The notes under the pieces are model-generated. The model ran no database searches, was not told where the DNA came from, and was given only the letters and a program-made list of their open reading frames with translations. Shown piece after piece: positions 1,804 to 26,041 of a DNA stretch of 33,176 bases. Position numbers and translations under genes: made by a program. Positions within the stretch are counted from its first letter, which is position 1. The number at the start of each line of letters is the position of its first letter. Origin of the DNA: a virus; IMG/VR virus record IMGVR_UViG_3300031227_000230, positions 1-33,176 of that record; one strand, given 5' to 3'.

Positions 1804-2009
1804 TTGTACCATCCTTCAACTGCTAATAATAAAAACACAATATCTCGAACAACTAAACTATATAAATCCACATTCAAATGAACATAAATTAAAATAATAT
1901 TACTGATAAACCAAACATAGAAACAATTACGATTCTTACGGTTATTTAATAGCACACCAATAACAGCTAAAACCATAGCTATCATTCCCAATACCTCCAA
2001 CACTATCAT
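1791..2009 (-). CDS. Small integral membrane protein, PnuC-half-like
   Basis: 72 residues with about three hydrophobic segments (residues 2-20, 30-44 and 50-66) and an aromatic C-terminus EGWYKWRK. The NNRKNRNCFYVWFISN segment after the first helix and the GWYKW end resemble half of a PnuC-type nicotinamide riboside transporter or a similar small 3-helix phage membrane protein. This is a resemblance from memory, not a proven assignment. Its start overlaps the polymerase stop by 4 bases (ATGA) and its stop overlaps the helicase start, so it belongs to the replication operon. A role in nucleotide-precursor uptake would fit the neighbourhood but is inference. Confidence 0.7.
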   Translation of the reverse strand: MIVLEVLGMIAMVLAVIGVLLNNRKNRNCFYVWFISNIILIYVHLNVDLYSLVVRDIVFLLLAVEGWYKWRK

Positions 2010-3451
2010 ATTTTCACCTTTTGTTTTTCAAACCAACTCTTACCAAGTGGGGCAACCTCTGCCTCAATTTCAATTGGTGTAGTTATAAATTTATAATGCT
2101 TTTTAATATCAACAGTCATTACTTGATTTACTAATTCCAAGTAATTTTTTAATTCTTTGCGGAGTACATCAGCGATAATACTATCATGAATTTGGCCTAT
2201 CAACAGACTTTTCATTTTATATTTCTTCAGTAGTTTTTGAATACGAATCAAAGACCATAACAGGCAATGAAAAGCCGTCCCTTGTATAGGGTAGTTAATA
2301 ACTTCATTACGTTTCATTTCCCCTTCGATGTGGAAACCTGTTAGCGTATCAAACCCACCATTTTCACAATATGCTGCATACCATTCGTCTTTCCATTGCT
2401 TGTATTTTTTAAATCTGTTGTTCCAAAAATCATATTCAACTTCTTTTATGTGGTGTATAAATGTGCCGGGTTTTGGTTTGGGATAATTCCACTTCCCATT
2501 TACGCCCCTTTCTTTTTCTAATGAACCGAGTTCATAAATCCCTTTAGTTTCTAAATGGCTATACAAATCATATCCGTTTCTGCATTGTAGTTTTAATTTT
2601 TCAATGTTATTCCACAAAGCAGGGGCACAATCATAAAACCAGTCACCATAAAACATAGGAAAGACAAACCCATTTTTGCCACTATACCTAATATCTTTTA
2701 TTCGTTTGGCGTCTTTTTTACCTCGTGATTTCATTTCTCTTTTAGCAAGCATGTAACATTGTTGGGCCATATCACGATGCATATCTTTGGTAGGGTCACA
2801 AATATATTTAAGCATTACAGGATCTTTGTGATACCATTGTGCTCCATGTACTTCTATACCACCATAATCAGCTTCTACAATGTGTCCAGTACGCCACCGG
2901 GATATAAAACATTGCCTTATAAGTTTACCTATATCGTAATTTCTAATAGGCTGATTTTGGATGTTGGGTGAATCACAAGAACCTCTATAAGTTTGTACTA
3001 AATGCAAATTGAAAACAGCGTGAATAAAACCATCACTTGACACTTCACGCAAAATACCTTTTAAATATGTACCCCTTGCTTTTTTTAATTTCTTAATGTT
3101 TAAATGATCTTTAACAAAAGGTATATCGAGTTTTTCTAATGCTTCAATATCTGTCTTTGGTATCCCGCTGGCAGTGCGTTCGCTACACTCATACCCCATT
3201 ATATTAAATAGTACTTTTCCTAATTGCTGTCCTGAATTAAGATTTGTTTTTTGTCCAAATTGTTTTCTCCAGACTTTACAAACTTTGCTATTTTTGATTT
3301 CATCTTCCAGCCTTTTAATTTCATTACCCGTATCAGTCATAGCCTGATTGAGATAATTTGTGTCTATGCACATACCATTGGCTTCTACTTGTGATAAAGC
3401 AATGACGCCGTTGTGTAGTAGTTTATATGCTTTGTTGGTTATTGGTCTCAT
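2006..3451 (-). CDS. Family A DNA polymerase, polymerase domain only
   Basis: 481 residues covering thumb, palm and fingers of a Pol I-type polymerase. Motif A is VEADYGGIEVHG with catalytic D195 (usual DYSQIELR). The motif B region is RIKDIRYSGKNGFVFPMFYGD at 250-270, ending in the conserved YG. A NYPIQGTAFHCL segment (about 387-397) matches the family NxPIQGxAAD motif, and motif C is GQIHDSIIADV with H422-D423. The thumb contains TNLNSGQQLGKVLF, the 'N(L/F)NSPKQL' motif. No 3'-5' or 5'-3' exonuclease domain is present. The proofreading domain is in the separate UDG-fused gene at 4005-5213, two genes upstream. The start codon overlaps the MazG-like stop (ATGA). Residues about 270-345 look like an expanded insert between motif B and the rest of the palm. 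Function: replicative polymerase working with the clamp at 5213-6229. Confidence 0.95.
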   Translation of the reverse strand: MRPITNKAYKLLHNGVIALSQVEANGMCIDTNYLNQAMTDTGNEIKRLEDEIKNSKVCKVWRKQFGQKTNLNSGQQLGKVLFNIMGYECSERTASGIPKTDIEALEKLDIPFVKDHLNIKKLKKARGTYLKGILREVSSDGFIHAVFNLHLVQTYRGSCDSPNIQNQPIRNYDIGKLIRQCFISRWRTGHIVEADYGGIEVHGAQWYHKDPVMLKYICDPTKDMHRDMAQQCYMLAKREMKSRGKKDAKRIKDIRYSGKNGFVFPMFYGDWFYDCAPALWNNIEKLKLQCRNGYDLYSHLETKGIYELGSLEKERGVNGKWNYPKPKPGTFIHHIKEVEYDFWNNRFKKYKQWKDEWYAAYCENGGFDTLTGFHIEGEMKRNEVINYPIQGTAFHCLLWSLIRIQKLLKKYKMKSLLIGQIHDSIIADVLRKELKNYLELVNQVMTVDIKKHYKFITTPIEIEAEVAPLGKSWFEKQKVKI

Positions 3452-4008
3452 GTATTATCTTTCGGTGCTGTATACCAATATTCGGCTTTCACATAATTGT
3501 ATGTCTGTACTAATGTTTCTTTTGATAAGCAACGTTGTATGACGGCCATTATTTCTTTCTCTTGTCGATGGCTAAATCTTTGAAGGATAGTACTAAATGG
3601 GCAGGTTCGGTCTTTAAATGAAGCAACACACTGGATTATTTTTTCTTCCAAATTGTCTTCCAATATTTCACGTTCTTTTTCTAAATCTCTGTTAGTGGCT
3701 TTTTCTTGTGTAAATTGTTCGGGGTATCTTGCTTTCAATTTGGCTATGTTTTTATTCATAACATATTCGAAAGAAACATTTAGCCGCCCACAAATTATTG
3801 CCAAATACCAAAATACATCGCCCACTTCTTCTACAACATTTACGGGGTCTAATTCCCTACCATAAAAAAGTGCTTTCTTAGCGGCGTCTAATAACTCGCC
3901 AGCCTCAGTTGATACTCCTATTATGCCATGTAATAATCTTTCATCCATTGTAGTAAAAGTGGGTGATTCAGTTTTCAATGCTAATTTCATATACTCTTCG
4001 TTTGTCAT
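3448..4008 (-). CDS. MazG-like NTP pyrophosphohydrolase with C-terminal extension
   Basis: 186 residues. The N-terminal about 115 residues are a phage MazG-like all-alpha NTP pyrophosphohydrolase. Metal-binding residues are visible as STEAGELLDA and, after a helix, EEVGDVFWY (E-x-x-E and E-E-x-x-D). The domain ends in the usual IAKLKARYP..F..EKA.NRDLEKE. Such enzymes hydrolyse dNTPs or NTPs, often aberrant ones, to monophosphates. The last about 70 residues (from about 118) form an extra domain of unknown type, possibly a winged helix, not part of standard MazG. The gene is wedged between the UDG-exonuclease and the polymerase with ATGA overlaps on both sides, so all three are likely made in fixed ratio. 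This suggests nucleotide-pool cleaning coupled to replication, which is inference. Confidence 0.88.
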   Translation of the reverse strand: MTNEEYMKLALKTESPTFTTMDERLLHGIIGVSTEAGELLDAAKKALFYGRELDPVNVVEEVGDVFWYLAIICGRLNVSFEYVMNKNIAKLKARYPEQFTQEKATNRDLEKEREILEDNLEEKIIQCVASFKDRTCPFSTILQRFSHRQEKEIMAVIQRCLSKETLVQTYNYVKAEYWYTAPKDNT

Positions 4009-5213
4009 TTTATTTTCTCCAATATTTTAATTTGTTTCATTGCTAATTGATATTCCAAAAGTGAATCCATGCCGTTATATAATAACAATTCTTCAATGTT
4101 TATTTCTCTTATCCGATTCAGTTTACTAGTGCCTTTTGATTTTAAAAATGGGGATATATGACTATCATAATCACCGGCACCCAATGTTACAAACGATTGA
4201 AACTTTAATCCCGTAATGCCTGCCCTATTATCGATAACGTGGGCGGCAATCATTGTATCCCAATACCAATTTTTAACACGATGCCCCAATTTATTCATCG
4301 TCCATCGGTCTTCAAATTTGATATTTGTGGCTATTTTCTTCACTGGTCTTTTCAATAGGTCTGATGTTGCTTCAATAGCTTCACCTTCAAAAGGAAAGGC
4401 GATAGTATGTTTACCATCAAAACAAATAGAACAACTCACAAGTTCAGATTTATCATACTCTGGTTTCAAACAATTTGCCTCATAATCAAAAGCAATACAC
4501 TTTGCTTTCTTACCTAATAACTGTATTGCCTTTGCGGCTCTTGATGGCCTTAATATTATATCAATTTTCTTTTTATAATCTGGTACTGTTTTAAATGGTT
4601 TGGATTTTGATTTTCTCACTCCCATTTTCAAATGCTTATATAATAAGTTTTCCAGTATGTCACTATTCATTCTTAAAAGATATGCCGGGTGATATGTAGG
4701 TATTATCCACGTATTTAATTTCTGACATGGGATGCAAAAGCCAGCCCATTTTTTAATGCCCCCAAAATCCTCATCATCTTTCCATGCGTAAGATAATAAT
4801 GATTGTGTGGCAATACCACCTAGTGTGATAATTACATTGGGTTTTAATCTGTTGATTGTTTTTATTAAGTTGGGTCGGCAGGCTTTTATTTGTCTGGCAT
4901 CGGGTGTTTTGTTATCTTTTGGATGACAAATAATTGCATTCGTTTTCCAACAGTCTCTATCTAATTTTATATTTAACTGCTCTAAAGTTTCCCATAAAAA
5001 TTGGCCGGACTTACCGATAAGCTGAATACCTTTTCTGTCCTCTTCTTTGCCCGGTGCCTCAGCAACAATCAATATCTTCTTCCTGCCTTTGCCTGTAGGT
5101 TGCATCTTCGGTGTTTTACAATGCCTAGACAAGCCACAAGCACCACAATGGGCTATGGTAGATAGTGGGCGTTTACTTTTTACAGTGGATAGGTTAAAGA
5201 ACGCTTTTGCCAT
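4005..5213 (-). CDS. Uracil-DNA glycosylase (family 4-like) fused to 3'-5' exonuclease
   Basis: 402 residues with two domains. Residues about 20-190 resemble a family 4 iron-sulfur uracil-DNA glycosylase: cysteines C23, C26 and C32 at the N-terminus, motif AEAPGKEED at 51-59 (family GEAPGxxED), a TN...C.P..N segment at 91-101, C112-R-P, and the HPAYLL motif at H175. Residues about 235-395 are a DEDD exonuclease of the DNA polymerase I proofreading type: Exo I D243-x-E245 (FDYEA), Exo II N297...F-E-D302, and Exo III Y379-N-G-M-D383. This is the exonuclease missing from the polymerase at 2006-3451. The start shares one base with the clamp stop (TAATG), and the stop overlaps the MazG-like start (ATGA). 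Likely role: proofreading plus recognition or excision of uracil at the fork. The glycosylase could be catalytic or a uracil sensor. Confidence 0.88.
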   Translation of the reverse strand: MAKAFFNLSTVKSKRPLSTIAHCGACGLSRHCKTPKMQPTGKGRKKILIVAEAPGKEEDRKGIQLIGKSGQFLWETLEQLNIKLDRDCWKTNAIICHPKDNKTPDARQIKACRPNLIKTINRLKPNVIITLGGIATQSLLSYAWKDDEDFGGIKKWAGFCIPCQKLNTWIIPTYHPAYLLRMNSDILENLLYKHLKMGVRKSKSKPFKTVPDYKKKIDIILRPSRAAKAIQLLGKKAKCIAFDYEANCLKPEYDKSELVSCSICFDGKHTIAFPFEGEAIEATSDLLKRPVKKIATNIKFEDRWTMNKLGHRVKNWYWDTMIAAHVIDNRAGITGLKFQSFVTLGAGDYDSHISPFLKSKGTSKLNRIREINIEELLLYNGMDSLLEYQLAMKQIKILEKIK

Positions 5214-6229
5214 TACTCAACACCCAGACAAGAAACGTAAGTAAATCTACCGTCTGTAATTTTTAGGATACCATCACCAATTTCACACTTCACATTTTTG
5301 TTTAATATTTGAACAAGTGTTTTTGGTGAAATTCTAAATTCTCTAGGTTCTCCATTATACTTTATCTTTGCAATTTCTGTGTAAGCACCATTAACGCCCG
5401 TCCCAGTAATCCGTAATTTATTGGCTTTCAGTTTGATAGTTACTTGGTTATCGTCCGGGTTCTCTGCTGAAAATATCTCGGCTTTGTCTGCCGCTTCTTG
5501 TAGCCCTTTTGGTAATACAGTTGGTTCTCCTGTTTTCTTTAATACTGCTGTTAATTCTTTACTGTGGTATTCTTCAATATACCTGCGACAACTAATGACA
5601 AGGCCAACAGGATTTCTGAAATGAATCCAGCTTTCTGTTTCACTAAATTCTGTCATATCCAAATTAACAATATGTGTCAACGCATCTTTTCTTATCAGGA
5701 TAGATTCTTCTAACCCTGTTTTAATTCTATACCTTGCTACTTGATAACTGTCACACGCTTCAACCCATTTAGGAGTGATATGTACACACACTAAAGAAAA
5801 TTTTGTTTCATCCCTACCGGCACAATCCTTCACTTTATCAATTGCAATTATAAAATCTGTTGGTAGTTCCCGCCACTTCTTCGGCGTTTCTACGGATTCT
5901 ATTGGCAGGAGTATTTCCTGTTCCATTTTTATAGTGGCTAGTCTTCGTTTGCCACTTGCTATAGTTATTTCTGCATCCTCATCTGTTGTTGTGTTTACGT
6001 CAACTTCTTCCTCTTTCATTTTCCTCAGTATGGCGAGGAGTGGTGCTGATTGTACTGCCCCGGTTATCTTTAGTTTTGTTTTAAACCTGCACGCCACATC
6101 ATCATTGAACGTCATAACTACACCTTTTGAAAATACAAAACATGTACTCTGTTCAATTATAGCCCTTGACGATAGGCCCGATGTTACTACTTCCAAATTC
6201 TTTAATAAATCTTCCCGATTGATTCTCAT
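5213..6229 (-). CDS. DnaN-like sliding clamp (beta subunit homologue)
   Basis: 338 residues, close to the bacterial beta clamp length of about 366. The whole-length pattern fits the clamp: N-terminal MRINREDLLKNLEVVTSGLS, a central acidic/hydrophobic repeat pattern, a VHITPKWVEACDSYQVARYR segment like the family 'DG..l.aTDg.Rla', and a C-terminal ISPKTLVQILN...EIGDG.LKI segment. No catalytic residues are expected. It would form a ring on DNA and tether the polymerase and UDG-exonuclease encoded immediately downstream. A phage-borne clamp of this length with a family A polymerase means processivity need not depend on host thioredoxin or the host clamp. It lies 15 bases after the radical SAM gene. 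Confidence 0.85.
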   Translation of the reverse strand: MRINREDLLKNLEVVTSGLSSRAIIEQSTCFVFSKGVVMTFNDDVACRFKTKLKITGAVQSAPLLAILRKMKEEEVDVNTTTDEDAEITIASGKRRLATIKMEQEILLPIESVETPKKWRELPTDFIIAIDKVKDCAGRDETKFSLVCVHITPKWVEACDSYQVARYRIKTGLEESILIRKDALTHIVNLDMTEFSETESWIHFRNPVGLVISCRRYIEEYHSKELTAVLKKTGEPTVLPKGLQEAADKAEIFSAENPDDNQVTIKLKANKLRITGTGVNGAYTEIAKIKYNGEPREFRISPKTLVQILNKNVKCEIGDGILKITDGRFTYVSCLGVE

Positions 6230-6244
6230 TTTGCTTTCCTTATG

Positions 6245-7180
6245 TTAGAATAATTTTTTTCTGTTCTTATTTAGTTTATCATCATGTTTTGCTTTAGCGT
6301 TTTTCTTTACACCAATATAATAATCTGTTTTTTTATATAATCCCGGATGACAAGACCACTCATATATTTCTCTATAAATGGTATTATCTCTAACTTTTTT
6401 ATCTCGCATCAAAAACACAAATTGCTTATTTTCCTTTAGTATTTTTATTCTTTCCATTACAGTATCAACGGTATCCTTTACACCTACATACACATACCAC
6501 CGTGTAAACCAATCAGGCATTCCATTATCTTTCAATAATTTCAATGCCTTAAGAACTGACTTTTTAGATTTGATATCGTCAAAAGCAAAACGCAACCCCA
6601 TTGAGGATACAAACTTTAAAGATAAAATATCTCTACACAATTTATCGGTGAGTAATCGACAGTCCAGACCTTGGTTAAAATCTACAATCAAATTTTCTTT
6701 TCTCAGTTGGTCGCATATTTTGGAAAAATGTTTTGGTGCGGCTAAAATATTATTATCCATCAAAATAACCCTATCGCTTTTCCCATCCCATATGTCGTAA
6801 ATATCACCAACTATTTTTATCTTGCCTTCTTTTTGTGGTACTATACAAAAATAACAATTTCGAATGCATCCACGAGTCGTAAAGCCGAAGTTTATTTTTG
6901 GTTTTATTGCGTCAATTTCGGGGGGTAGTTCTTTTTTTAAAGAGTAACCAGAACCACCAATTTCTGCCACACCTTCCCATTTAGTACAAAAATGTTTATT
7001 CCAATCAAAGACACAAGATACATACACTTTATCATAATTTTGTAATAATAAAGGAAAGGTATTTGGATGTTCATCTTTTATCTGGTTAACCACATCCCCC
7101 AATAATTCATGGTGGATTTTAATTTTTTGTAGTGCCAGATTAGGAATAATGCTATCTACATTTACTAATAATATTTTCAT
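6245..7180 (-). CDS. Radical SAM protein
   Basis: 311 residues. The radical SAM iron-sulfur motif is C105-I-R-N-C109-Y-F-C112 (CxxxCxxC), inside GFTTRGCIRNCYFC, which resembles MiaB/B12-type radical SAM proteins. A GLDCRLL segment and (V)RFAFDD follow in the positions of the barrel strands. The N-terminal about 90 residues (MKILLVNVDSIIPNLALQKI) look like a degenerate cobalamin-binding-like Rossmann domain, as in B12-radical SAM proteins, though no DxHxxG motif is seen. The C-terminus is Lys-rich. It sits between a DNA-binding candidate and the sliding clamp in the replication operon, so a nucleic-acid or nucleotide modification is possible. Substrate unknown. The start is 1 nt after the previous stop codon. 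Confidence 0.85.
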   Translation of the reverse strand: MKILLVNVDSIIPNLALQKIKIHHELLGDVVNQIKDEHPNTFPLLLQNYDKVYVSCVFDWNKHFCTKWEGVAEIGGSGYSLKKELPPEIDAIKPKINFGFTTRGCIRNCYFCIVPQKEGKIKIVGDIYDIWDGKSDRVILMDNNILAAPKHFSKICDQLRKENLIVDFNQGLDCRLLTDKLCRDILSLKFVSSMGLRFAFDDIKSKKSVLKALKLLKDNGMPDWFTRWYVYVGVKDTVDTVMERIKILKENKQFVFLMRDKKVRDNTIYREIYEWSCHPGLYKKTDYYIGVKKNAKAKHDDKLNKNRKKLF

Positions 7181-7822: not shown

Positions 7823-8467
7823 CTATTTGCCTTCTAGTATTATATCTATGTTTGGCCAATCTTCCCGCACTATGTCAGCACATAATTTTAATGTCGTAGC
7901 ATGAGCAGCAGCATGAGCAGCAGCATGAGCAGCAGTATGAGCAGCATAAGCAGCATGAGCAGCATGAGCAGTATGAGCAGCATAAGCAGCAGTATGAGCA
8001 GCATAAGCAGCATGAGCAGCATGAGCAGCATAAGCAGCATGAGCAGCATAAGCAGCAGCATGAGCAGCATGAGCAGCATGAGCAGCAGCAGCAGCAGTAT
8101 GAGCAGCATGAGCAGTAGCAGCAGCAGTATGAGCAGCATGAGCAGTAGCAGCAGCAGCTTCCAATTCTTCTCTGCTAATAACGTCGCCGTTCACCCATTT
8201 TTCATGTAGCAGAATACAATCTTTGCTCGCTTGTGTCATCCATTCCCAAGCTAACCTCGCACATTTCAGGGATGTTTTAGTAATTGGTTTGCGTTCATTT
8301 GAATAAGGTTTCGAGTCGTCCATTGACCCGATTAACCACAGCATCCAATCGCCACGCTCGCACTTGTCCCATGCCTCCTGAGAGGTTGCGAATTGGTGTG
8401 ACCATTGAATGGCACTTTCACAAGCGTTTAATTCTTTAAGTTTTTCAATGTATTTTTTAATTTCCAT
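7823..8467 (-). CDS. Imm5-like 'putative immunity protein' with Ala-repeat tail (copy A)
   Basis: 214 residues. The N-terminal about 100 residues contain AWDKCERGDWMLWLIG and LKCARLAWEWM. The last 25 contain LCADIVREDWP. Both ends are hallmarks of the family named Imm5-like or 'putative immunity protein' in phages and bacteria (from memory). Between them, residues about 103-188 are an alanine repeat built from AAH, AAY and AAT units, expected to form a long helix or solenoid. No biochemical function is established for the family. A paralogue, nearly identical in the N-domain, is at 25451-26041 on the other strand. A promoter-like element with GATAAT at 8509-8514 lies directly upstream, and the same element precedes the paralogue. 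Confidence 0.85.
   Translation of the reverse strand: MEIKKYIEKLKELNACESAIQWSHQFATSQEAWDKCERGDWMLWLIGSMDDSKPYSNERKPITKTSLKCARLAWEWMTQASKDCILLHEKWVNGDVISREELEAAAATAHAAHTAAATAHAAHTAAAAAHAAHAAHAAAYAAHAAYAAHAAHAAYAAHTAAYAAHTAHAAHAAYAAHTAAHAAAHAAAHATTLKLCADIVREDWPNIDIILEGK
7898..8158. repeat. Tandem 9-bp-unit Ala-codon repeat (copy A)
   Basis: The stretch is built of AGCAGC followed by ATG, AT(A) or AGT triplets (GCTGCT plus CAT, TAT or ACT on the coding strand). Alanine is written almost only as GCT. It encodes the Ala-rich tail of the Imm5-like protein. The frequent AGCAGCATG 9-mer makes replication slippage likely, so length variation between isolates is expected. Confidence 0.9.
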
Positions 8468-13254: not shown

Positions 13255-14612
13255 TTCTTTTTCCTCTTAAATGATTTGGCCAATTTGTCATATATTTCTA
13301 AATCGTAGTCACTGATTGTTCCATCTAATACTTGACTGATTACTTCTTGTTTGCTTTGAAGTAATTCACAAAGTGGTTCTTCAATTGTATCTTTTGCGAT
13401 TAGGTATGAGATAACAACGGCATTTTTCTGGCCTATCCTATGTGGCCTGTCTTCTGCTTGTAGCATGATACCCGGTACAAAGTCTATTTCAACAAAAGCT
13501 AATTGACTAGCTGCTGTTAATGTAATACCTGTACCAGCGGCTATCATTTGTCCGATGAATATTTTTATTTTTTTATTATTGTGAAAACTGGTAATGGCTA
13601 ATTCTCTTTTTTTCGATGGGGTGCTTCCATCGATAACAACACTTATTTTTTTGTATCTGTCATGAAGTTGTTTTAATATGCTTTTGTGGAATCCATATAG
13701 GATTAACTTTTCATCTGTCTCTTCTAAGAAATTATCCACCCATTCAAAAACAGCTTTCATTTTTAGTTCGGCAGCAAGTCTTTTAAGATATCCCATTTTC
13801 ACAACTGCTTCTGCCTTCATTGCTCGCTTGGCTTTCGCTGTTGATTTTTTGGACAGCCATTTTATAAATTCGTTTTTTGCTGTGTTGTATTCTTTTTTAT
13901 TTGATATGGTTAGAGGTATTATCTGTCTTGTTTTTTCTGGTAATTCTTTCAATACATCTTTTTTTAATCGTCGTATCATGCCTAGTGATTTTAGTTTGTT
14001 ATGCAGTTCGTCTAGATGTGCTGCCCCCTTGAACTCCCATCCCCACGGTCTTTTCGATGCTTTACAATAACGAAAAGCAAATGTCCAAAAAGAAGGAAAT
14101 TCTTTTGGCCATATTAAATTCAATGTTGTAAATAATTCAGAAGGTCTATTAACAAGTGGTGTTCCACTGAGTGCTATAACGTGTTTTGTTGTTTTGGCTA
14201 ATTGTTTAACAGCCTTTGTTCGTTTGGCACTTCTTGATTTGATATAATGACTCTCATCAATGATAAAGACAGATGGTTTTATTTTTTGTATATAATCCAT
14301 CCAATATTGTAAAATTTCATAATTGATTATTAGTATTTCGCACTTATTTAAAATGCCTTTCTTTGGCGGTGTTCTACTTTCTAATACCACTGTCCGAAGG
14401 TTCATATGTTGTAGTGCCTGCGTTGCCCATACCCATTTTAAAGTGGCGGGGCTTACAATAACTACAGGGCGTTTTTTAGGGCATTTCATTAACCAATATA
14501 GGCATTGTATTGTTTTACCTAAACCCATTTCATCAGCAAGTAAAGTCCTACCTTTGCATCTCCGTATCTGTTTGGCTCCTTTTAGTTGGAAGGGTAAAAG
14601 TTTAGTGACCAT
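13251..14612 (-). CDS. SNF2-family helicase (SMARCAL1-like core)
   Basis: 453 residues containing the full set of SNF2 motifs: LADEMGLGKT (Walker A, residues 26-34), VIVSPATLKWVW, NYEIL, motif II FIIDESH, motif III ALSGTPLVNRPSELF, a helicase C lobe with DGSTPSKKRE, GTGITLTAAS, and motif VI QAEDRPHRIGQ. The length is that of a minimal two-lobe motor as found in many phages. Likely roles are fork remodelling, recombination or displacement of host proteins. The start overlaps the sigma-like gene by 11 bases, and the stop overlaps the RHH gene. Confidence 0.93.
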   Translation of the reverse strand: MVTKLLPFQLKGAKQIRRCKGRTLLADEMGLGKTIQCLYWLMKCPKKRPVVIVSPATLKWVWATQALQHMNLRTVVLESRTPPKKGILNKCEILIINYEILQYWMDYIQKIKPSVFIIDESHYIKSRSAKRTKAVKQLAKTTKHVIALSGTPLVNRPSELFTTLNLIWPKEFPSFWTFAFRYCKASKRPWGWEFKGAAHLDELHNKLKSLGMIRRLKKDVLKELPEKTRQIIPLTISNKKEYNTAKNEFIKWLSKKSTAKAKRAMKAEAVVKMGYLKRLAAELKMKAVFEWVDNFLEETDEKLILYGFHKSILKQLHDRYKKISVVIDGSTPSKKRELAITSFHNNKKIKIFIGQMIAAGTGITLTAASQLAFVEIDFVPGIMLQAEDRPHRIGQKNAVVISYLIAKDTIEEPLCELLQSKQEVISQVLDGTISDYDLEIYDKLAKSFKRKKK

Positions 14613-15135
14613 CTTGTATTACTTCCTTTATCTCATTTATTGTTTTGATTATTTGCTCAGATGACCAGCCTATACTTTTCATAATGCTTTTGAGTTTACA
14701 ATGAGGGCGGCGTACATGTGGTTTTTCCGTCCGCATTATTTGTTGTATTTCTTTTGGTGAAGAACGGATTAAATTTATCATGGTTTTACCATCATTTGAT
14801 AAATCACATAATAAATCGTCGAGTGATGTGGTTTCGTTTTTGGCTGGTAGAAATTCATTTACTTCACATACACTTTTTATTTTTTTGAATGAGTTTTCCA
14901 TTTTTTCTAGGAGGCCATGCCATATTGTAAAATGGATGTGGTTTGTGAAAGGCCCTTTTTCTGGATTGTAGTTTTGGTAGGCATCTAAGAAAAGCAAATT
15001 GGCTTCAGAACTCAAATCATCATATTCATTAAATGGATTGAAATGCCGTTTGATGAATTTATGACAAATATTGTGGATGAGTTTCTCTACGTCTGTGTAA
15101 GTTTCTGAAATTGCTTGCTGCTTCAAAGTTCCCAT
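14602..15135 (-). CDS. Sigma-70-family-like protein
   Basis: 177 residues. Residues about 14-75 match sigma70 region 2: LIHNICHKFIKRHF, NEYDDLSSEANLLFLDAYQN, YNPEKGPFTNHIHFTIWHGL (the 'DDL.QE..l.l..A...yd...g.F..y....i' pattern). The remaining 100 residues could include a poorly conserved region 4 (IGWSSEQIIKTINEI), but no clear HTH is seen. It could redirect host RNA polymerase to the four-copy GATAAT-type elements, or be a sigma mimic. It is the first gene after a strong 17-bp-spaced promoter (15176-15204), which suits an early regulator. Confidence 0.65.
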   Translation of the reverse strand: MGTLKQQAISETYTDVEKLIHNICHKFIKRHFNPFNEYDDLSSEANLLFLDAYQNYNPEKGPFTNHIHFTIWHGLLEKMENSFKKIKSVCEVNEFLPAKNETTSLDDLLCDLSNDGKTMINLIRSSPKEIQQIMRTEKPHVRRPHCKLKSIMKSIGWSSEQIIKTINEIKEVIQDGH

Positions 15136-25277: not shown

Positions 25278-25373
25278 ATGGAAACGGAACTGTTGATACT
25301 GGAAGAGCTTAGGGGGATACATCTTGGCGTTGCTAGTGATGTGGCCGTGGAAAACAGGAGTGACGGAAGTTAA
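25278..25373 (+). CDS. 31-residue peptide upstream of Imm5-like copy B
   Basis: ATG 25278 to TAA 25373, with AAAGG 8 nt upstream. It reads METELLILEELRGIHLGVAS, then DVAVENRSDGS, and is mostly one amphipathic helix. Its stop overlaps an ATG at 25373 that is in frame with the next gene, but that gene has a better start at 25451. No family recognised. Confidence 0.45.
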   Translation: METELLILEELRGIHLGVASDVAVENRSDGS

Positions 25374-25450
25374 TGACTTCGGCGTATATCGCAGGTTCCT
25401 TTAGTGTGGCAACAAGCCCTTTTCTTATTATTTTTGGAAGGAGAAGCGTA

Positions 25451-26041
25451 ATGCAAATAAAAGAATGCATCAAAAAACTTGAAGAGTTAAACGCTTGTGG
25501 TTGTGCCATTAAATGGTCTAGGCAATTCACTACTGCACAAGAAGCTTGGGATAAGTGCGAACGTGGCGATTGGGCGTTGTGGTTAATCGGCAAACTAGAT
25601 GAATCTAAACCTTATTCTGATGAGCGCAAGCCGTTAGTGTCAACGTGCTTAAAGTGCGCAAGATTAGCTTGGGAGTGGATGCCGAAGATGGGCAAAGACT
25701 GCATCGAATTATATGAAAAATGGGTTAACGGGGAAAAAATCTCCGTTGAAGAATTAAAAACCGCCTCTGCCGCCTCTGCCGCCTATGCCGCCGATGCCGC
25801 CTCTGCCGCCTATGCCGCCGATGCCGCCACCTCTGCCACCTCTGCCGCCTCTGCCGCCGATGCCGCCACCTCTGCCGCCTATGCCGCCACCTCTGCCGCC
25901 TATGCCGCCACCTCTGCCACCTATGCCGCCGATGCCGCCTCTGCCGCCTATGCCGCCTATGCCGCAACACTAAACCAATGTGCTGACATAGTGCGGGAAA
26001 ATTATCCGAATGTAAATATGATACCGGAAGGAAAAATGTAA
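25451..26041 (+). CDS. Imm5-like 'putative immunity protein' with Ala-repeat tail (copy B)
   Basis: 196 residues from ATG 25451, chosen because GGAAGGAG precedes it and because the paralogue at 7823-8467 starts at the same point (MQIKECIKKLEELNAC against MEIKKYIEKLKELNAC). The conserved parts are AWDKCERGDWALWLIG, LKCARLAWEWM and the C-terminal QCADIVRENYPN. The repeat (residues about 104-172) uses AAY, AAD, AAS and AAT units, not the AAH of copy A. Family function is unknown; the 'immunity' name comes from toxin-immunity gene surveys. It is placed between MuF-like and protease genes, behind the same promoter class as copy A. Confidence 0.85.
   Translation: MQIKECIKKLEELNACGCAIKWSRQFTTAQEAWDKCERGDWALWLIGKLDESKPYSDERKPLVSTCLKCARLAWEWMPKMGKDCIELYEKWVNGEKISVEELKTASAASAAYAADAASAAYAADAATSATSAASAADAATSAAYAATSAAYAATSATYAADAASAAYAAYAATLNQCADIVRENYPNVNMIPEGKM
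25761..25965. repeat. Tandem 9-bp-unit Ala-codon repeat (copy B)
   Basis: It is built of GCCGCC plus TAT, GAT, TCT or ACC triplets. Alanine is written as GCC throughout, whereas copy A uses GCT. The repeat codes for the Ala-rich tail of Imm5-like copy B. Confidence 0.9.

Follow-up and report, generated by a model that had tools for sequence, protein, structure and literature searches.

A stretch of 33,176 nucleotides (hereafter the window), a 33-kb virus fragment carrying terminase and portal genes, was found to encode a family-A DNA polymerase in two pieces. A uracil-DNA glycosylase (UDG) domain and a proofreading exonuclease domain were located on one 402-residue protein (UDG-exo), the polymerase domain was located on another, and a MazG gene stood between them. 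We regard it as probable that the two proteins form a two-subunit phage replicase, derived from the UDG-exo-PolA enzyme by a cut at the linker, in which UDG-exo would bring uracil handling to the replication fork.

Gene order, domains and the exo/pol cut

The clamp, UDG-exo, MazG and polymerase genes formed a single operon on the minus strand (window 2006-6229), with successive overlaps of 1, 4 and 4 bases. The clamp/UDG-exo junction was TAATG, and both the UDG-exo/MazG and the MazG/PolA junctions were ATGA. Re-checking of the reading frames and junction sequences upheld the gene coordinates, order and overlaps of the original prediction, and its domain identities (UDG, exonuclease, MazG, polymerase, clamp) were borne out by Pfam, PHROG and Foldseek.

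Table 1. Features of the replication operon in the window
Feature	Position	Strand	Evidence or key residues
Beta-type sliding clamp, 338 aa	5213..6229	minus	PHROG_947 1.5e-28; AlphaFold pLDDT 91; Foldseek to bacterial DnaN 2.5e-22
UDG-exo protein, 402 aa	4005..5213	minus	PF03167 and PF01612; AlphaFold mean pLDDT 91.1
Disordered UDG-exo N-terminus, residues 1-13, with AFF motif (GFF in most relatives)	5175..5213	minus	pLDDT <50
Family-4-type UDG domain, Pfam residues 41-185	4659..5093	minus	E52, E58, N92, N101, H175; Fe-S Cys 96 and 112
DEDDy-type 3'-5' exonuclease domain, residues 226-390	4044..4538	minus	Ligands D243, E245, E301, D383 with Y379
MazG-type NTP pyrophosphohydrolase, 186 aa	3448..4008	minus	PF03819 1.1e-7; PHROG_229 2e-42
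Family-A polymerase without exonuclease, 481 aa	2006..3451	minus	PF00476 2.7e-47

On the flanks of the operon, the end of the polymerase gene overlapped by 4 bases with the gene of a 72-aa protein (1791-2009, minus) whose similarity was limited to the initial part of the PnuC-type NMN transporter family. The gene of a radical-SAM-like protein (PHROG_9298, 6.6e-51; 6245-7180, minus) lay immediately before the clamp gene on its upstream side, and distant relatives of this protein adjoin the clamp in loci L013 and L028. Elsewhere in the window, a small protein (14602-15135, minus) gave a weak match to sigma-70 region 2 (3.7e-5), slightly below the cut-off. The proteins encoded at 7823-8467 (minus) and 25373-26041 (plus) opened with a common N-terminal part (KKLEELNAC..AIKWSRQF), beyond which came short tandem repeats rich in Ala, and resembled paralogues placed in different modules. 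Assignment of a host was dropped, as the binned contigs indicated very different taxa.

In the 402-residue protein, the Pfam matches were PF03167 (UDG, 5e-26) and PF01612 (DNA_pol_A_exo1, 9e-10). The original prediction would have been abandoned if a profile search had shown no UDG similarity, and the strong match at residues 41-185 settled this point in its favour. Structure prediction of the protein alone gave a confident model, the folds of which matched family-4 UDGs and the Klenow exonuclease; in the Foldseek ranking, the family-A polymerase of phage phiLo (9qhs) came first, followed by the family-4 UDGs 1l9g and 1ui0 and then by the Klenow exonuclease domain. The PHROG_17 profile (named DNA polymerase) matched UDG-exo over its positions 473-829 and the window polymerase from position 835 onward.

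UDG-exo-PolA in a single chain is thus an ordinary, already known phage polymerase (PHROG_17; SPO1 gp31; PDB 9qhs). It was found in the annotated Lysinibacillus phage LysYB1, Vibrio phage R01, Edwardsiella phage ZHS and Pseudomonas phage Lebethron; SPO1 gp31 had this layout plus an intron, and Bacillus phage BSTP12 and Weizmannia phage Youna2 had an additional break within the polymerase part. The exonuclease had been described in the original prediction as cut off from the polymerase and joined instead to a glycosylase: the cut was real, the new joining was not, since the three-domain chain is usual in phages, and what is peculiar to the window lineage is the cut between exo and pol rather than the UDG-exo junction. 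Compared to the fused enzymes (PHROG_17; SPO1 gp31; LysYB1; R01; 9qhs), the window had the identical three domains in identical order, but on two genes with MazG between them instead of one polypeptide. In a GenBank-derived phage collection the fused sequences shared at most 28% identity with it, and no phage matched above that value. The glycosylase residues were degenerate in all cultured fused polymerases sampled. In fused relatives the UDG-exo match ended and the polymerase match started within about 20 residues, at the site of the cut.

The survey of gene order suggested by the original prediction was carried out by scanning IMG/VR and GTDB contigs, which yielded 105 non-redundant loci. 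The exo/pol cut was common to 73 related loci, none of them from a cultured phage. In the tree of UDG-exo, the 73 split rows (window included) and five rows of unassigned state formed one clade (SH-aLRT 100); all fused rows lay outside it, and no return to the fused state was seen within it. This topology points to a single, long-standing cut that was then kept in the main clade. Four further split rows stood elsewhere on weakly resolved branches, so that two further cuts outside the main clade are possible. A smaller tree, built quickly and holding just six fused rows, called for two changes and was compatible with one origin.

Inteins and introns are known in related polymerases, and one polymerase gene interrupted by an intron, an intein or an assembly error would also appear as two pieces. 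This cause of the split was refuted and keeps next to no probability. Neither a group I intron nor an intein was recognised: no Rfam intron matched the window, the two genes overlapped or lay within 20 nt of each other in 20 of 74 related records (with zero-length gaps in some), which leaves no room for an intron, and the identical cut recurred in 73 distinct loci. A literature search on the UDG-exo-pol fusion, its split and phiLo gave nothing specific except a split polymerase in OM43 phages (PMC10580990). In these phages, MEP401 and MEP402, the family-A PolA is likewise divided over two ORFs that flank a small third one, whereas the cut falls inside the polymerase domain rather than between exo and pol, and no UDG was reported (PMC10580990).

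Active sites of the divided polymerase

The polymerase protein carried motif A (D195/E200), motif B (R255/K259/Y268-G269) and motif C (H422-D423), which were conserved at 95% or more in the split clade. Intein-like insertions of about 280-350 aa were observed in the polymerase of three relatives (L112:2200-4656, L120:11734-14235 and L142:8705-13309), and in L142 an apparent second intein lay directly after the UDG Fe-S cysteine C96.

The exonuclease had the four acidic ligands and the motif III Tyr of the DEDDy type, residue 301 being Glu where Asp is usual. D243, E245, E301 and D383 were each present in 73/73 members of the clade. The original prediction had chosen D243, E245, D302 and D383; three of these stood and D302 was rejected, as residue 302 varied (Asp in 34, Glu in 27 and others in 12 of the 73) while E301 was invariant. 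The second motif, N297-I-K-F-E301, aligned with N-L-K-Y-D424 of Klenow. In the E301 column, most sampled polymerases outside the lineage had Asp, and R01 and ZHS had Glu.

The pocket of the family-4 UDG TthUDGa is lined by E41, E47, N80 and H155 (PMC5387724), the equivalents of which in the window protein were E52, E58, N92 and H175. The Fe-S cysteines C96 and C112 were present together with C23 and C26, which stand just ahead of the Pfam match. The domain therefore resembled the family-4 enzymes TthUDGa (1ui0) and TM0511 (1l9g) in fold, four Fe-S cysteines and pocket Glu, Asn and His; it was unlike them in belonging to a polymerase, in an additional conserved Cys32 and in the stacking residue, where the Phe (F54 of TthUDGa) was replaced by Leu (L65). 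At this position the clade (n=73) had Leu in 49, Phe in 15 and Tyr in 3 members, and in TthUDGa the F54A substitution cost about 17-fold (PMC5387724). Loss of the glycosylase residues across homologues, named beforehand as a ground for giving up the uracil reading, was not observed: pocket residues and four cysteines were all intact in 64 of 73 members (Asp allowed at 58). The other nine lacked at least one catalytic residue and kept all four cysteines. A complete site was found in none of the seven cultured phage polymerases (Youna2, Lebethron, LysYB1, R01, BSTP12, ZHS, SPO1) and in one of two metagenome-assembled GenBank phages.

Because the site is intact in most of the clade with the pocket Phe changed to Leu in 49 of the 73, the domain probably functions in this clade as a glycosylase or as a uracil sensor, with its efficiency or specificity altered. 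Retention of every cysteine in nine members without a full catalytic set suggested that the domain probably has some role besides catalysis, and that catalysis may be dispensable. These same nine, the Leu at the F54 position and the persistence of the domain in SPO1 and the other cultured polymerases sampled despite their loss of catalytic or Fe-S residues would also fit a relic of the polymerase, structural or DNA-binding in role, that cleaves no glycosidic bond. We hold such a relic to be rather unlikely, as the clade is deeply diverged and yet 93-96% of its members retained each of E52, N92 and H175, a conservation that neutral drift would not have left in place.

The domain might instead act on or read a modified base in a phage with modified DNA. 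The DNA of SPO1 contains hydroxymethyluracil, and its gene 29 is annotated as a dUMP hydroxymethylase; the top Foldseek match, 9qhs, was solved with a modified template, and the Phe to Leu change falls in the base pocket. This possibility was judged quite improbable, as the Glu that excludes thymine (E47 of TthUDGa, here E58; PMC5387724) and the uracil-binding Asn were kept, and the scanned genes of the window, itself a fragment, included none recognisable as a base-modification gene.

The adjoining clamp and the genes in the gap

The clamp was weak in Pfam (0.003, below cut-off) and clear in PHROG and by structure, with a Foldseek TM to DnaN of about 0.7 over the whole predicted chain, matching the three-domain clamp fold. 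Its gene was found upstream of UDG-exo in 64/64 loci checked, at a distance of at most 60 nt in 39 of them. Of 77 split-gene proteins, 58 had an FF motif in the disordered N-terminus of UDG-exo; a wider aromatic or hydrophobic pair was present in 93 of 95. Among fused polymerases, R01 and ZHS also had the N-terminal FF, with the clamp gene directly upstream; the motif was absent from the seven other GenBank polymerases compared. Protein distances correlated best between clamp and UDG-exo (r 0.61), followed by UDG-exo and polymerase (0.42) and by polymerase and clamp (0.30), although such correlations could also arise from gene distance and recombination. Given the two lower values, the polymerase may have been exchanged.

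Beta-clamp ligands typically end in LF, and the conserved aromatic motif beside a beta-type clamp gene suggests a putative clamp-binding peptide. A parallel is offered by human UNG2, the N-terminal PIP motif of which docks on PCNA (PMC10810282). Like UNG2, which acts at the replisome, UDG-exo would be a glycosylase with an N-terminal clamp motif; UNG2 belongs to family 1 rather than family 4 and carries no exonuclease. On the motif, the adjacent clamp gene, the distance correlation, the LF ligands and this parallel, we put forward docking of UDG-exo on the clamp as a reasoned guess.

The window MazG was above the Pfam gathering score (PF03819, 32.4 bits against 22), and continued at its C-terminus for about 60 residues past the MazG domain (3448-3640, minus), an extension that most gap homologues lacked. 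The original prediction had treated MazG as part of the set. Constant membership was rejected, as MazG was missing from most relatives; its recurrence in the gap above chance was confirmed. In an unbiased Pfam scan of 74 related records, 7 of 10 MazG matches over the cut-off fell in the gap between the UDG-exo and polymerase genes, a region accounting for 1.9% of the bases (p ~1e-10 in a binomial test that treats the records as independent, which is not quite so). The gap proteins comprised several distinct NTP-PPase types, and presence of MazG in the gap changed at least 10 times on the tree. ThyX, dCTP deaminase and dATP/dGTP pyrophosphohydrolase were also present in gaps of relatives. Where the genes did not overlap or nearly touch, the gap ranged up to 4.7 kb; CsrA-like regulators were encoded in three gaps (L014:6800-6985, L120:10497-10730 and L132:13384-13749), and another was filled by a long low-complexity Ser-Arg/Trp-rich repeat region (L087:3045-4472).

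A permissive intergenic site that collects neutral cargo, with no functional tie of MazG and its neighbours to the polymerase, would account for the many empty gaps and for the unrelated CsrA-like, HNH-like, methyltransferase-like and unknown genes that gaps also house. We give this a substantial but minor chance; the concentration of MazG in so small a share of the bases, the several enzyme types and the repeated changes on the tree speak against it.

A predicted two-subunit replicase

In an uncultured tailed phage, the locus would specify the replicase, in the form of the known UDG-exo-PolA enzyme severed at the exo-pol linker. UDG-exo and the polymerase, whose genes share an overlapping operon with that of a phage-encoded beta clamp, would probably reassemble on this clamp, with the N-terminal aromatic motif probably docking UDG-exo in the manner of the UNG2 PIP motif on PCNA. 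The UDG-exo subunit would couple excision or sensing of uracil with 3' proofreading, and MazG, like several other dNTP-pool genes that have repeatedly come to lie in the gap, would lower abnormal dNTPs. In favour of this reading, a dUTPase of the PF00692 type was not found in 24 large relatives of 17-100 kb, which are fragment records. The division into editing and synthesis subunits was evident at the gene level, and we infer that the two act as one replicase, on uracil. Replication-coupled exclusion of uracil by this predicted system is plausible. A fully active glycosylase acting on template could harm replication, which counts against this explanation.

A variant in which an active UDG and exonuclease form a separable, clamp-docked editing subunit beside a detached polymerase, stripping dU from the new strand while pool-cleaning enzymes encoded in the gap replace dUTPase, was considered unlikely.

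The UDG domain on phage polymerases has been hard to interpret owing to its degeneracy in the cultured phages sampled. The split clade retains the site and carries it on a tractable stand-alone protein of 402 residues, which makes cutting and sensing of uracil directly testable. A family-A replicase long divided into an editing and a synthesis subunit would be a counterpart to epsilon and alpha of DNA polymerase III.
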